Translations under genes and position numbers: made by a program | NCBI RefSeq assembly: GCF_037996765.1 | Contig: NZ_JBBNAD010000004.1 | Coordinates: 930,001 to 994,000, forward strand | Reading direction: 5' to 3' | Length of the DNA stretch: 64,000 bases | Source of the DNA: Bdellovibrio sp. GT3 | GTDB taxonomy: Bacteria > Bdellovibrionota > Bdellovibrionia > Bdellovibrionales > Bdellovibrionaceae | Shown here: one piece after another, positions 10 through 10,854 of the stretch | Layout of the letters: each line of letters starts with the position of its first letter | How positions within the stretch are numbered: the first letter of the stretch is position 1 | The notes under the pieces: generated by a model | What the model was told of the DNA's origin: nothing | Database searches by the model: none | The model's input: only the letters and a program-made list of their open reading frames with translations

Positions 10-47
10 CCCCAGGATGCTATGAGTTAAACTTATAGCACCCGGGG
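10..47. other. Long imperfect hairpin downstream of the phospholipase-like gene
   Basis: A stem of CCCC (10-13) with GGGG (44-47) encloses a second stem, GCTATGAGTT with its near-complement ending ATAGC (19-39), using G-T pairs. It lies just past the stop codon of the minus-strand gene at 83-1306. It could act as a transcript end or stabilising hairpin, but no clear T-run follows it on the minus strand, so the terminator reading is weak. Confidence 0.3.
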
Positions 48-82
48 AGTCACGAACCAACGCAACAAAACGCTGCTGTTTG

Positions 83-5099: not shown

Positions 5100-5840
5100 T
5101 TAGTAGACGTCTTTGAAGGCTAGAATCTCTTTGAACTTAGTTTCGTGATCATTTGGAAATCCACATCTTTCGGAAAAATCATCGGCGTCTTTGAATGTTC
5201 CAAACATTCGGTCCCACAAAGTGAGATCAGCATAGTTGTATTTGTGAACACCTAATTCATGATGAATAGAATGATGTTCGGGCCTTTGAATGATGTAACC
5301 AACCCACTTTGGCGTTCTAATGTTGGCGTGATAGAAGTATTCTCCGGTCGCCGCATAGAGTGCATACCAGGCGCCAGCCTCCGCACTTCCACCAAAAACG
5401 CAGTAAATGATAAATCCAATTAAAATTGAATCAGCCGCGATTTCTACTGGATGTTTGTAGAAAGAGGTTAGTACTTCGATTCTAGCCGGACTGTGATGTA
5501 GTTGATGGAAGATCAACCACCAGCCATTGGCATGGCGAAGTCGGTGCCACCAATAAAAAACAAAAGTTCCGATAAACCAAAAAAAGAATCCTTCCAAAGC
5601 GGGGGAGTTCCAGTTCCCAATAGGAAGTAATGTGTAGTCTCTAAAGAACTTATTCCAAGTAAGGCCAGCGAAACCTACCATGAGCAGTTGGACAAGATTG
5701 ATTAAAATCGCTCTGCCGTACCATCCTTTGGAATGAGGTAGTTTGCGGCCTGGCTTTACACGTTCCAAGGTGAAGAAGAAGACCGTAGAAATTATGAGCA
5801 AGACCGAAGGAAGTGCTTGAGACGTAATTGTGTTGTTCAT
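5100..5840 (-). CDS. Sterol desaturase/fatty acid hydroxylase-family membrane protein
   Basis: About 246 residues from the ATG at 5840. A GTG at 5864 would add 8 residues and neither start has a clear ribosome site. The family's di-iron histidine clusters are all present: WWHRLRH, FHQLHH and HHSIHH followed by HKYNYADLTLWDRMFGTF. Four or so membrane segments lie in the N-terminal half. These enzymes hydroxylate or desaturate lipid chains at the membrane and need O2. Substrate unknown. It is a single gene, divergent from the fragment at 5901. Its base composition looks AT-rich, like the cassette to its right. Confidence 0.8.
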   Translation of the reverse strand: MNNTITSQALPSVLLIISTVFFFTLERVKPGRKLPHSKGWYGRAILINLVQLLMVGFAGLTWNKFFRDYTLLPIGNWNSPALEGFFFWFIGTFVFYWWHRLRHANGWWLIFHQLHHSPARIEVLTSFYKHPVEIAADSILIGFIIYCVFGGSAEAGAWYALYAATGEYFYHANIRTPKWVGYIIQRPEHHSIHHELGVHKYNYADLTLWDRMFGTFKDADDFSERCGFPNDHETKFKEILAFKDVY

Positions 5841-5900
5841 ATACAAATTAAACCGAATAAACACCTTGGTGTATATAAGATTGTTGGATAGTATCGAATC

Positions 5901-6095
5901 ATGTCACAGAGTCTTGGTGGAATCATAGGTGTTAGTGCTGTTTTTCTCATGTCCTGTGCTTCAGTCACAACCAAAGCCACCTATGAGGGCATCGCCGCCC
6001 CCGAAGTTACCGATCAAATACCTAAGTGCGTGGTAAGAGTTGGAACCCTTATCTCCTTACGGAGTTTCAATAGATCGGGAAAGAATCTGGTCTGA
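5901..6095 (+). pseudogene. Truncated lipoprotein gene running into a repeat element
   Basis: The first ~43 codons encode a plausible lipoprotein start (VFLMSCAS, lipobox Cys near 19). From about 6035 the frame continues into sequence that has a second copy at 9548, and it stops within it. The C-terminal ~20 residues are therefore encoded by repeat DNA. I read this as the 5' remnant of a lipoprotein gene cut off when the repeat or cassette arrived. A short functional lipoprotein is possible but less likely. Confidence 0.45.
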
Positions 6096-6222
6096 CGGGG
6101 CTTTGGAAGAAGTGCCCCGGAACCCGCATTTCACCGGCATCGCATGGATGCGATCTCCGGAGCGTTAGCCCACAGGGCCGAGGGCAGGAGTCTGAGGCAT
6201 CACACACGAAGTGATCGGCAAC
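6046..6222 (+). repeat. Left copy of a structured repeat bracketing the 6.4-9.4 kb cassette
   Basis: Positions 6066-6129 match 9572-9635 at 54 of 64 positions by hand alignment. Weaker similarity extends to 6046 (CCCTT..CTCCT.ACGG). Both copies hold a GGGGC...GCCCC-type hairpin and end in CGAAGTGATCG-CAACA (left copy at 6207-6222). The left copy has about 75 extra bases, including the hairpin CATCGCATGGATGCGAT. Not a coding repeat. Confidence 0.7.
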
Positions 6223-6273
6223 AAGTTTGAAACCTAGATAAAATAATATTGAACGTTTTTACCAAATCAACTC

Positions 6274-6288
6274 GTCTCAGTGTGAGAC
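6274..6288. promoter_or_regulatory. Perfect palindrome GTCTCA-GTG-TGAGAC, candidate operator
   Basis: Symmetrical 15-mer 105 bases before the first gene of the cassette. It has the same 6-3-6 arrangement as the sites at 2488 and 9678. Confidence 0.5.
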
Positions 6289-6393
6289 AAATATCTTCGC
6301 AGAACAAATAAACAAAAAATAATATCTAATCATATTTAACTTTTGTGGAGTCGGCCGAAAAGCTGGGTGTCTAGTTGTACGTGGGCGGGGGAC

Positions 6394-7557
6394 ATGAAAT
6401 ACAAAATCATCATTCCGATTCTATTATTCTCCATTCCTTGGGTATTTAATGCTGCAACAGTCGCTGATGTGATCGTGCCTGCAAAAGCAATCACTGGTGG
6501 CTTTAGAGTTGATTTCACTGATCCAGCTCTGTGGCAAAACTATGTGAGAAGCCCAAATCCAAACTTAGCTAACTTAATCAATGCCAATTTCGGTGTTAGC
6601 ACATTACATGGCCTTGGAACTCTCATCGAATGTATGCCAAGGACAATCCGCGAAGGTAAAGTAAACCCTTTTAAGAGTTGTGCAGGTATTGGGGGGCAGA
6701 AGGGTGCTCGGTCACTTACAATTAGTGGAAAAAACTCAAATATATACGGAATTTCAGTTACGCTGGCCTCTCCTGCGGCAAACAATCCACATTTTACTGC
6801 GCCCTATAGCACAGGTTTTGGATTTAAAGTCTTCTACGACTACCAAACTGAAACCAACATCAATCAAAGACCGAAGTGTGTAACCAAGGGCGGTTTTCTG
6901 AGCATGCTTGACGACACCGTTGGTTCCGTGGAGGCCACTCCGGCAGCCAAACAGGTGATCACCTTGCAATGCACTCATCCGATCATTGTGTTTACATTCA
7001 AAGAGGAGGGGTATTACTTTCATGAACTAAGTCATCCTCAATTCAACGGATACTATGAGACTGAAAACGTTGGACCATTGATTCAATCAATTGATTTCGC
7101 GACCAAGAATCCATATTCCGTTTCACTCAAACTAAACACACTAAGTAGAGATAGTAAGTCAATAAAAGCTACCAACATTTTGGCTAATCCAGATGGCTAT
7201 ACCGTCAAGGTGCCTCTTGGCAGCTATTCCTCATTTGCACTTGTTGATTCCGCAACTGGATCGAGTCTTTCTGCTAAATACTCATATTCAACAGGGGCAG
7301 TGTTATCTCCGTCAATTTCAGCTGCGGATCGTATGTCGACCATGTTCGCAGACCGAGTTGCATTTTTGTTCGGAAGTTCGACTACAGCTGCTCAAACCCT
7401 GATTGCAGTGCATATGGGTCAACAAAAATTGCTCATTACCCCAGACGACTCTCGCTTTAGTCCTGTTACAGTAGTACTCAGTGTGGTGAAACCAGTGATT
7501 GCCGCAGATGAAGTGGATCCGAACTGCACATATGTCTACAATAAAATTTGTCTATGA
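6394..7557 (+). CDS. Exported protein of unknown function, first gene of a repeat-bracketed cassette
   Basis: 387 residues from the ATG at 6394, chosen because it opens a clear signal peptide (MKYKIIIPILLFSIPWVFNA) and follows GCGGGGGAC. The upstream TTG at 6343 would bury the signal. The mature protein is Ser/Thr/Asn-rich with several Cys and alternating beta-like stretches. I recognise no domain. Codon use and base composition are visibly more AT-rich than the housekeeping genes. The gene overlaps the next one by 26 bases in the +1 frame. It may be the N-terminal half of a frame-shifted larger protein, as the next frame has no signal peptide. Confidence 0.65.
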   Translation: MKYKIIIPILLFSIPWVFNAATVADVIVPAKAITGGFRVDFTDPALWQNYVRSPNPNLANLINANFGVSTLHGLGTLIECMPRTIREGKVNPFKSCAGIGGQKGARSLTISGKNSNIYGISVTLASPAANNPHFTAPYSTGFGFKVFYDYQTETNINQRPKCVTKGGFLSMLDDTVGSVEATPAAKQVITLQCTHPIIVFTFKEEGYYFHELSHPQFNGYYETENVGPLIQSIDFATKNPYSVSLKLNTLSRDSKSIKATNILANPDGYTVKVPLGSYSSFALVDSATGSSLSAKYSYSTGAVLSPSISAADRMSTMFADRVAFLFGSSTTAAQTLIAVHMGQQKLLITPDDSRFSPVTVVLSVVKPVIAADEVDPNCTYVYNKICL

Positions 7558-8422
7558 TCCTCAGTGGGCGTCATGCCATGAGCTGATTTATTCAGTGGCG
7601 CATAAAACGGGTATTCCGGTTCCAATGATTAAAGCCCAGATGGAGCAAGAAACCGGCTTCTCTTTTAAAAAGAAGGAAAAAAGTATTCTAAAAAAGGACT
7701 ATTACAGGTATGAGCCTGTTTTTGATCGTACTTACTTTTATGGAATGAGTTCCAGGGTTAATTATGCAGATGCATACACCAATGCGCCAGCTTATAAGCC
7801 TTGGCTCTACTTTTTAACCTCAAATAAAGTTTATACGAAGCTTTTGCATCTACGTTCAAAATATAAAGTTGGCATTGATGGTAAGTATGTCGCTGTCCCA
7901 GACAATTACGAAAAACGCACCAAAACCTACAGTCCATTACGTGCTTGGGATCTTGTTGATGCGGATATCAATCATCTGGGGGATTCTCAACGATGGTTCG
8001 ATACTAAAACTACTGATGCTGGAGTGGTTGTGTACACACCTGCTCCAACACTAGCAAATTTTAATTTTGTTGCTCAAACTACCGTTTCTGCTAGTTATGG
8101 AATGATGCAAGTGATGTACCCTACGGCGGTTGGTCAGGGATTCACAGTGAACGGCGTGGGGGATGATCCATGGAAGCTTTTTCGTCCAAGTGTTGGTCTT
8201 GAACTTGGTGCAAAACATATGCTGGCAAAGTATAAAGCTGCAAATACCTCGAGAAACACTAGTACAATGATATCTTTGGATTATTATATGACTAATCTGC
8301 GACTTGGATACGTTAGGTATAATGGATCACCCAAGAACGCCAGAGCAAGAGACTATGGGGTTAATGTTCTGAAGCGATCTGATCAGTACTTTACGGTGGA
8401 GAAAATCGTTTATGCAAGGTAA
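7532..8422 (+). CDS. Lytic-transglycosylase-like (lysozyme fold) protein without its own signal peptide
   Basis: 296 residues from the ATG at 7532 inside the end of the previous gene. The frame itself is open from 7499. Two hallmarks of the SLT/lysozyme-like fold are visible: TGIPVPMIKAQMEQETGF (~residue 22 on), with a Glu at the catalytic position, and ASYGMMQVMYPTAVGQGF (~residue 180), which resembles the GLMQLMPATA motif. The middle section between them is unusually long. No signal peptide is present, which is odd for a peptidoglycan enzyme. It either depends on fusion to the preceding exported frame (+1 shift within 7499-7557) or is exported another way. It overlaps the next gene by 11 bases. 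Confidence 0.7.
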   Translation: MSTIKFVYDPQWASCHELIYSVAHKTGIPVPMIKAQMEQETGFSFKKKEKSILKKDYYRYEPVFDRTYFYGMSSRVNYADAYTNAPAYKPWLYFLTSNKVYTKLLHLRSKYKVGIDGKYVAVPDNYEKRTKTYSPLRAWDLVDADINHLGDSQRWFDTKTTDAGVVVYTPAPTLANFNFVAQTTVSASYGMMQVMYPTAVGQGFTVNGVGDDPWKLFRPSVGLELGAKHMLAKYKAANTSRNTSTMISLDYYMTNLRLGYVRYNGSPKNARARDYGVNVLKRSDQYFTVEKIVYAR

Positions 8423-9443
8423 TCAAATAATTACTGTGGTTCTGACTTTGTTTGTCTTTGCTTGGTGTGAAGTGGGTGGCGGGCAAACTGCGGCTGACGC
8501 CAATCTTGTTAAAGCCAATATTCCGGCATCTTTTAAGTCGATGAAGGATTCAACCGGTGCTGTCGTTTCAGTTGGCAATGGAATTGGATATCAATTTGAA
8601 GTAGCTGAGTTTGATGGCGCTGGAAAAGGAAGGTTTTTGGTTGTCCTTTATAAAGGCGGTTTGGAAATTGGTAACAACCTTTGCGAGCTATCGGTAATAA
8701 AAGTTGTTGGGACTAAAGGCACGGTAATGCCCAAAGCGACGCTTAATTTCAGCGAAGAGTTAACTGGATGTGCTGAAATTGAATTGAAAGATATAGACGG
8801 AGATGGGCGAGTCGAGGTTCTCGTTAAGAACGCAAATTCTAAGGGTCAGTTCGATTCTCCACTTATTTTTAAGTGGAACGGTAAAAATCTTGTAGATCTC
8901 ACTCCGGTTGTAACTGAAGATGGAATGGCTCTCAGTGCTTTTCGCAATATGAGTATATCTGGCGGCAAAGAAGGGAAAAGTAGTCTTTTGATCGACAGTC
9001 CAATGGCGTCGAGTTTAGATCGGAATACGAGGGTACTTGCGGTTATAAATGGTAAAGTTACCCTTCTTGGGACCTATTCATTCTATAAATTGTATCCAAA
9101 AATTAAAACAATTGCAGAATTGCGAAGTGAAACACTTGCACTCCCTGCTGGGACATACAATCTCGAAATCAAAAATCGTTCCGCAGATCTCACAAAAGCT
9201 GTTCGCGCCCAGGTTCAGGTCGGAGCTAACATTGTCATTAAACCAAACGCAATGTGCGCAGGACCTGCTCCAAAGGGTTATAAGCCGCCCAATGATGGAG
9301 ACGGCAATGATGATAAAAACAAAGGCTGTGTTCCTCGTAAAAGTACCTATGTGACCATCATTCTTAAAGGGAATGAGGTTGTGAAGGTGACGGGGTATGG
9401 GGCTACCGGCTCCTATCTCGAAATCTCCCTCCTCAAGAAGTGA
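8412..9443 (+). CDS. Exported FG-GAP/VCBS-like protein
   Basis: 343 residues with an N-terminal hydrophobic export signal (ITVVLTLFVFAWCE). Residues ~115-135 contain IELKDIDGDGRVEVLVKN, the D-x-D-G-D-G calcium-binding loop of FG-GAP/VCBS repeats. A low-complexity Asp/Asn/Lys stretch (PPNDGDGNDDKNKGC) occurs near residue 295. Third gene of the cassette, start overlapping the previous stop. Probably extracytoplasmic and calcium-binding, with possible adhesion or partner binding for the transglycosylase-like protein (inference). Its stop codon lies in the left arm of a large inverted repeat. Confidence 0.65.
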   Translation: MQGNQIITVVLTLFVFAWCEVGGGQTAADANLVKANIPASFKSMKDSTGAVVSVGNGIGYQFEVAEFDGAGKGRFLVVLYKGGLEIGNNLCELSVIKVVGTKGTVMPKATLNFSEELTGCAEIELKDIDGDGRVEVLVKNANSKGQFDSPLIFKWNGKNLVDLTPVVTEDGMALSAFRNMSISGGKEGKSSLLIDSPMASSLDRNTRVLAVINGKVTLLGTYSFYKLYPKIKTIAELRSETLALPAGTYNLEIKNRSADLTKAVRAQVQVGANIVIKPNAMCAGPAPKGYKPPNDGDGNDDKNKGCVPRKSTYVTIILKGNEVVKVTGYGATGSYLEISLLKK

Positions 9444-9565
9444 GGAGCTATAAGGGCTCATCTGCTTCGTTGGATCAAAGCCACCGTCACTGCGACATAC
9501 TGACCAGTATGCCTCGCTTTGGCGGCTTCGCTCCGCCTCGCATCTGAGCCCTTCTAACTCCTCAC
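9440..9565. repeat. 126-bp palindromic element overlapping the stop codon of the preceding gene
   Basis: The 21-base arms 9440-9460 and 9545-9565 pair at 19 of 21 positions. Inside is a nested hairpin CATACT-GACC-AGTATG flanked by further complementary tracts (GCGA/TCGC and AAGCC/GGCTT), so the whole can fold as one long cruciform. An alternative short hairpin CTCCTCA/TGAGGAG (9429-9447) competes for the left arm. It has no T-run and no coding capacity. It abuts the right copy of the cassette repeat. Confidence 0.75.
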
Positions 9566-9661
9566 GGGATATTCAATACATCGGAAAAGAAAATGGTCTG
9601 AAGGGGCTCTGTAAGAGGTGTCCCGGAACCCGTATATCATCACGAAGTGATCGCCAACAGT
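9548..9661 (+). repeat. Right copy of the structured repeat bracketing the cassette
   Basis: Same orientation as the copy at 6046. The 64-base core at 9572-9635 matches the left copy at 54 positions. The internal hairpin is kept, with a G-T pair replacing one G-C. ATCACGAAGTGAT and CCAACAG close the element. Its first bases are also the right arm of the palindrome at 9440-9565. Confidence 0.7.
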
Positions 9662-9677
9662 TATCCCGCAACCCCGC

Positions 9678-10314: not shown

Positions 10315-10854
10315 ATGAACAAAAGAATAATGGCTATTGCAGTTCTGTTGGCAGGAAGCATGCTGGGTGCGCAAGTAAACGCCAAACCATCCAGCGGGGT
10401 TATGTCCTCTTTGAATGTCTATTCATACTCGAAGGAAGTTAGTGATTCGCCAGGCGGGGACAGCAAGATGAGCACCCGAGTTTACGACATTAAAGTTGGT
10501 TATATAGGTGCAAGTGGTCTTTATCTGGGTGGGATGTACACCACGAGAAGTGATGAGTCAGGGTCCTCCACCACAGACGGAAATGCACTCGCTGCTTCGA
10601 TTGGGTACGTTGGCGAAGCAGGTGTTTATATCATGGGTCACTACATCGTTTCGGCAAAATTTGGGGACTACAAGGAAGGCACAGGCTTTAAAGCGGATTT
10701 GGGTTATCTATATATGGTGAACAATGTGGTGTTCGTCGGGGCAGAGCTCACTTACCGCAGTATCGATTACAAAAAGAATGATTCCATTCCAAACCTTGAT
10801 AGTCACAAGGTCTCTGAAACCTTCCCGATGTTGTCAGTGGGTGTGGTGTTCTAA
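10315..10854 (+). CDS. Small outer-membrane beta-barrel protein
   Basis: 179 residues from the ATG at 10315, chosen because AAGGAG lies 7 bases ahead and a signal peptide begins there (MNKRIMAIAVLLAGSMLGAQVNA). An upstream start at 10255 is not supported. The mature chain alternates Gly/aromatic/polar residues in 8 or so amphipathic strands (VYDIKVGYIGASGLYLGGMY, ...GLYL-, ...GVYIMGHY) and ends in a hydrophobic residue-Phe (VGVVF), as barrels do. No substrate can be inferred. It converges with the next gene, overlapping by 4 bases. Confidence 0.7.
   Translation: MNKRIMAIAVLLAGSMLGAQVNAKPSSGVMSSLNVYSYSKEVSDSPGGDSKMSTRVYDIKVGYIGASGLYLGGMYTTRSDESGSSTTDGNALAASIGYVGEAGVYIMGHYIVSAKFGDYKEGTGFKADLGYLYMVNNVVFVGAELTYRSIDYKKNDSIPNLDSHKVSETFPMLSVGVVF

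Follow-up and report, generated by a model that had tools for sequence, protein, structure and literature searches.

An operon for exported proteins in Bdellovibrio sp. GT3 lies between two similar structured repeats, and the question is whether it represents a cassette that has been moved as a unit, and by which kind of system, or an ordinary operon that happens to lie between dispersed sequences. The window analysed here is a stretch of 64,000 nucleotides (contig NZ_JBBNAD010000004.1, positions 930,001 to 994,000), and positions given without a locus name refer to it. The two same-orientation copies that the sequence-only reading had placed around the operon are present as a direct repeat of 73 nt (6061-6133 and 9567-9639; 82% identity, ungapped), accompanied by a second matching block of 19 nt (6205-6223 and 9641-9659; 95%). 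Upstream, the homology extends to about 6043 in the left copy and about 9545 in the right copy (alignment -28..62, 94 aligned columns). Even with up to 3 mismatches allowed, a 30-nt core of the repeat matches a single site of the window (chance expectation 0.00). The genome search that had been proposed as a check, made with blastn and covariance models, gave only these two copies in 3.58 Mb, both flanking one operon.

The interval between the repeats is moderately AT-rich, as had been read from its composition. Its GC content of 42.4% falls within the lowest 1.8% of same-size stretches of the window (mean 46.4%), and ORF1, ORF2 and ORF3 rank 6, 2 and 3 of 46 in GC3. No transposase was found between the repeats. 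The lipoprotein gene starting at 5901 is indeed cut off at the left repeat, at about 6043 (Table 1). Since no intact homologue of it was found in the genus, this gene may be old cassette cargo, and the fragment is probably the remnant of a preceding cassette.

Table 1. Features of the repeat-bracketed locus in the window
Feature	Position	Strand	Description	Basis
Lipoprotein gene, 5' part	5901..6043	+	Cut at the start of the left repeat	Sequence
H remnant	6044..6071	+	Left composite: spacer and last (3') part of hairpin H	Alignment of the two window copies (winL/winR)
Left structured element	6072..6223	+	ATCG box, hairpin 1 (6096-6119), GAACCCG box, expanded hairpin 2, ATCGGCAAC box	
ORF1	6394..7557	+	N-terminal part of the split, secreted transglycosylase-like gene	Collinearity with the G025 protein
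ORF2	7538..8422	+	C-terminal SLT-like part of the split gene, in another frame, open from 7499	
ORF3	8412..9443	+	Exported FG-GAP-like protein, partner gene	Conserved gene order in G009 and G025
Hairpin H of the right composite	9440..9565	+	Begins at the ORF3 stop codon	Inverted repeat
Right structured element	9578..9659	+	ATCG box, GTCTGA, hairpin 1, GAACCCG, short hairpin 2, ATCGCCAAC box	

What had been read as three genes proved to be two, one of them split. ORF1 and ORF2 are collinear with one protein of 679 aa encoded in a single intact frame in the relative G025 (L152:586-2625, minus strand), and both match one open frame in another relative, G009. The ORF3 homologue is located directly downstream of the ORF1/ORF2 homologue in both of these genomes. 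Because ORF1 and ORF2 align to single frames and the ORF3 homologue comes next in the relatives, we treat the operon as a two-gene unit. The frame changes within the overlap 7499-7557 and may reflect a real mutation, a programmed frameshift or a sequencing error. Relatives of ORF1/ORF2 occur in only 3 of the 66 genomes of the family, and no close relatives of ORF2 were found in GTDB r220 and IMG/VR. The peptidoglycan-related job that had been suggested for the operon is plausible. An ORF2 homologue matches the SLT domain with E 1.3e-7 and the G009 homologue scores 31.6 bits, above the curated Pfam cut-off, but ORF2 of the window itself reaches only E 0.002, below that cut-off. The G009 homologue of ORF3 matches FG-GAP_3 (E 1e-6). 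As judged from these domain matches, the first gene likely encodes a peptidoglycan enzyme that is secreted, and the second an exported partner that may serve, for instance, as its inhibitor or anchor.

A motif search in the loci of relatives revealed a similar arrangement in two further species of the genus. A covariance model built from 11 copies (R1; 35.2 bits for the left and 50.5 bits for the right window element) matched 26 copies in 3 of the 66 genomes of the family, namely G000 with 2, G014 with 9 and G025 with 15 copies. The model R2, built from 28 copies (52.7 and 53.0 bits, respectively), added one copy in G015, so that the repeat family comprises about 30 copies in 4 of the 24 genomes of the genus, G015 having a single weak one. 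This weaker copy, in a fourth species (L126:2389-2470, minus strand), is situated about 9 kb from a coupling-protein gene. The phylum was searched with R2, 10 candidates of each genome being scored. Two R2 matches outside the genus (L128 and L129) were set aside as chance hits, being AT-rich, with 30 and 26.7 bits, and one of them clearly located within a coding gene. No match came from exact-pattern scans of IMG/VR and GTDB r220 contigs, from which near relatives may be left out, and plasmid and phage collections contained no copies of the family.

The consensus of the element consists of an ATCG.AAAC box, a short spacer, GTCTGA, hairpin 1, GAACCCG, hairpin 2 and a ATCGNCAAC box. Hairpin 2 ranges from 20 to about 200 nt across the family, and the left window copy is longer than the right one because its hairpin 2 has expanded by about 70 nt. 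In an alignment that was fitted to the model, and hence leans towards it, 91% of the cells are paired and both sides have changed in 18 of 20 pairs. The cells changed on both sides number 124, compared with 39.5 in shuffles, none of the 500 shuffles being as high, and sliding the partners destroys the signal; the first MAFFT alignment of 11 copies gave the same result. Rfam 15 has no match to the element at gathering or relaxed thresholds, returning only tRNA and one chance match. The element, with its two hairpins, is a previously uncatalogued structure with strong covariation.

This element is usually part of a composite of about 230-260 nt, formed by a terminator-like hairpin of about 100 nt (H), a spacer and then the element of 80-110 nt. 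Pairwise comparison of 30 copies with their flanks shows that the homology usually runs from about -155 to +106. H usually starts near the stop codon of the upstream gene, and it overlaps the ORF3 stop in the window; H-like hairpins also stand alone elsewhere in the genus. The right window composite is complete (about 9436-9662; fold z -3.35 for the region 9436-9664), and its H has homologous counterparts in other composites. The left one is missing most of H and keeps only the last 28 nt or so before the element. One G025 copy has a hairpin 2 formed by an inverted repeat of about 200 nt, and the left window copy is half of that form. All three copies with an expanded hairpin 2 are without a full H (6044-6223 in the window, L077:8424-8678 and L119 about 10610-10850). 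The hairpin-2 insert of the left copy (6134-6215) also resembles a palindrome dispersed in the genus outside composites (L004:1501-1540, L005:1501-1564 and L050).

The genes around the composites bear on the main rival to a cassette function. According to this rival, the element is a cis-acting RNA or transcription-insulating module on conjugative elements that isolates adjacent genes, either as a terminator hairpin with a structured RNA or as an antitermination or processing signal, and recombination is a by-product of similarity. As such a module would have it, the element comes right after a terminator-like hairpin, and in 20 of 27 copies it shares the orientation of the upstream gene. The conserved unpaired boxes and the GTCTGA/GAAC motifs next to hairpin 1 resemble folded RNA, and the strong covariation fits RNA as well as single-stranded DNA. 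However, a leader function is argued against by the downstream gene, which is convergent in 8 of 25 copies, with its stop codon mostly 3-61 nt away (7 of the 8). The missing Rfam match also speaks against the module, as does the one copy in which hairpin 2 reaches about 200 nt with the boxes kept. We consider it rather unlikely that an RNA module of this kind accounts for the element.

Most copies of the family form arrays in integrative/conjugative elements, one in G025 and two related ones in G014. The G025 element is about 65 kb long and resides at a tRNA-Met gene, the tRNA-Met 3' end occurring on both sides of the array. It encodes a tyrosine integrase, two Replic_Relax proteins, a coupling protein and a TraG-type ATPase, and thus combines the integrase, the tRNA att duplication and the mobilisation and transfer genes that characterise integrative/conjugative elements. 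In G025 and on contigs 1 and 11 of G014, the first composite is found just downstream of the type IV coupling-protein gene, and all copies of the G025 array have one orientation (+). The cargo between the G025 composites contains genes for Rhs, a nuclease, a PD-T4-6-like kinase and a PD-Lambda-1-like protein, which suggests that it includes defence genes. Pfam detected no dedicated recombinase among the 56 ORFs of the G025 element beyond its own tyrosine integrase. Features shared with other integrative/conjugative elements are the tRNA-borne position, the tyrosine integrase, Replic_Relax, the coupling protein and the TraG/VirB4-type ATPase, and cargo that varies between copies. What differs is that a folded composite recurs within the cargo and divides it up; to our knowledge, such a subdividing repeat is not known from other elements of this type. 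The window copy, in contrast, lies outside any such element. There is no coupling-protein homologue in its own genome and no second tRNA-Gly 3' end in the window, and the tRNA-Gly gene was rejected as an att site on the latter ground.

The position of the arrays also recalls Frpo elements, which the family resembles in being repeated, on the same strand, foldable and near mobilisation genes. A single-strand promoter or leading-region element of this sort would be active when single-stranded DNA enters the recipient; the G025 copies share one orientation, the first ones follow mobilisation genes, and the transferred strand could fold into the hairpins. Unlike Frpo elements, those described here are not consistently upstream of co-oriented genes. 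The convergent downstream genes (8 of 25 copies) and the lack of a common promoter spacing downstream, as judged by eye, make this explanation very improbable, and we rejected it because the gene orientations do not fit. An oriT or MOBP nick site was likewise discarded, the ATCCTG motif being missing from both window copies.

Integron attC sites provide another comparison, as the cassettes of the G025 array are similarly bounded by same-orientation structured sites. attC sites are defined by a same-strand pair of motifs, RYYYAAC close to one end and GTTRRRY close to the other, and have a variable terminal hairpin. None of 28 copies carries both motifs on one strand. Moreover, attC forms a single long imperfect hairpin with paired ends, whereas the present element has two separate hairpins and unpaired ends, end-to-end pairing being inconsistent between copies. 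The core sites of attC are inverted, but here direct ATCGNNAAC boxes are found at the ends. Membership of attC was thus rejected on both sequence motif and fold. The arrays further differ from those of integrons in their mixed gene orientation and in that no integron integrase was identified, the recombinase matches coming from the general Phage_integrase model only. Orphan clusters of cassettes devoid of an integrase (CALINs) do exist among integrons (PMC9024848, PMC8618304).

Evidence for exchange at the composites comes from the relatives. On contig 11 of G014 a single composite connects two segments, Y and X, whereas contig 1 has cassette Z between them, with a composite on either side of Z. 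The Y segments match at about 93% as far as the outer arm of H, and the X segments are 99-100% identical from 1-10 nt after the element. The composites between Y and X differ, and those of the filled copy cannot simply be derived from the single one on contig 11. The similarity between two cassettes of G014 (79%) ends 4-5 nt past the element, after which they are unrelated. In G025, the copy at L077:8424 is a chimera, equal to copy 1 on the left of the hairpin-1 loop and to copy 3 on its right, and its stem no longer pairs because the halves come from different neighbours. In these events, the breakpoints lie either at the ends of composites or in the loop of hairpin 1, a pattern compatible with homologous recombination or a dedicated recombinase. 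The comparison for an empty site that had been proposed succeeded in part, with a filled/empty pair in G014 but no clean empty site at the window locus. In G022, two neighbouring genes of the window locus are present and the cassette is missing, but the DNA between the two genes is different, and the barrel and hydroxylase loci of the relatives were insufficiently syntenic to define an empty site there.

A fatty-acid-hydroxylase gene adjoins both the cassette (5100-5864) and a truncated mobilisation end in G014 (L039 6811-7590), the two being 74% identical. G022 has a homologue of 80-81% identity, with no composites. The hydroxylase surroundings are possibly a shared integration neighbourhood.

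The G014 pair also bears on another explanation, namely that an ordinary accessory operon lies by chance between two dispersed palindromic repeats (REP/MITE-like) with no cassette function. This genome has just two copies, single relatives of H and of the hairpin-2 insert are found at other places in the genus, and an 82-nt copy is repeated with 97% identity and sharp ends at two unrelated G025 sites, like a small insertion element. Such a coincidence is nevertheless quite improbable, given that the copies are concentrated at cassette borders of conjugative elements, that the filled/empty pair breaks at composite ends and that both copies in this genome flank one operon. The 82-nt copies are devoid of H (L118:9428-9509 and L120:141-222), and their match begins and ends at the element borders, as if the element were able to move alone.

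We consider it probable that the operon and its two repeats are a mini-array orphaned from a gene-cassette system that integrative/conjugative elements carry in the genus. Points that weigh against this reading are the lack of a dedicated recombinase among the 56 ORFs of the G025 element, of a coupling-protein homologue in the genome of the window and of a clean empty site at the window locus, the parentage of the G014 composites, and the confinement of the family to four genomes. The breakpoints support the composites as marks of exchangeable cassette borders. Each cassette would comprise one or a few genes, usually closed by H, and the composites would act as same-orientation, interchangeable borders where gain, loss and exchange of cassettes take place, either through RecA-type recombination of one repeat with another or through a recombinase that works on the folded element. 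We infer that the window locus derives from a conjugative or integrative element. Deletions would strand orphan mini-arrays such as this one, and the left window composite may have lost most of its H along with the 3' part of the lipoprotein gene. The suggestion that the operon is a transferred unit has thus gained indirect backing from the ties of the family to conjugative elements, the occurrence of ORF1/ORF2 relatives in only 3 of 66 genomes and the G014 pair, but not from an empty site in the window. No composites were found near the G009 and G025 copies of the gene pair.

We further infer that the folded element itself is what recombines. A stronger version, in which the predators' conjugative elements carry a structure-guided system of cassette recombination, distinct from integrons, whose recombinase takes the folded element as its substrate and moves cassettes including defence-like genes and cell-wall enzymes, seems unlikely to us. 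If the composites are exchange sites, they would provide a second route, besides integrons, to shuffleable cassette arrays in bacteria. These arrays would sit on conjugative elements of Bdellovibrio-like predators, and their cargo includes genes resembling anti-phage kinases and PD-Lambda-1. Even if the exchange is ordinary homologous recombination, the covariance model is ready for finding the element elsewhere. In the G025 array, the proteins resembling PD-Lambda-1 (E 4e-87) and the PD-T4-6 kinases are encoded at L078:12646-13704 and L078:2289-3845.
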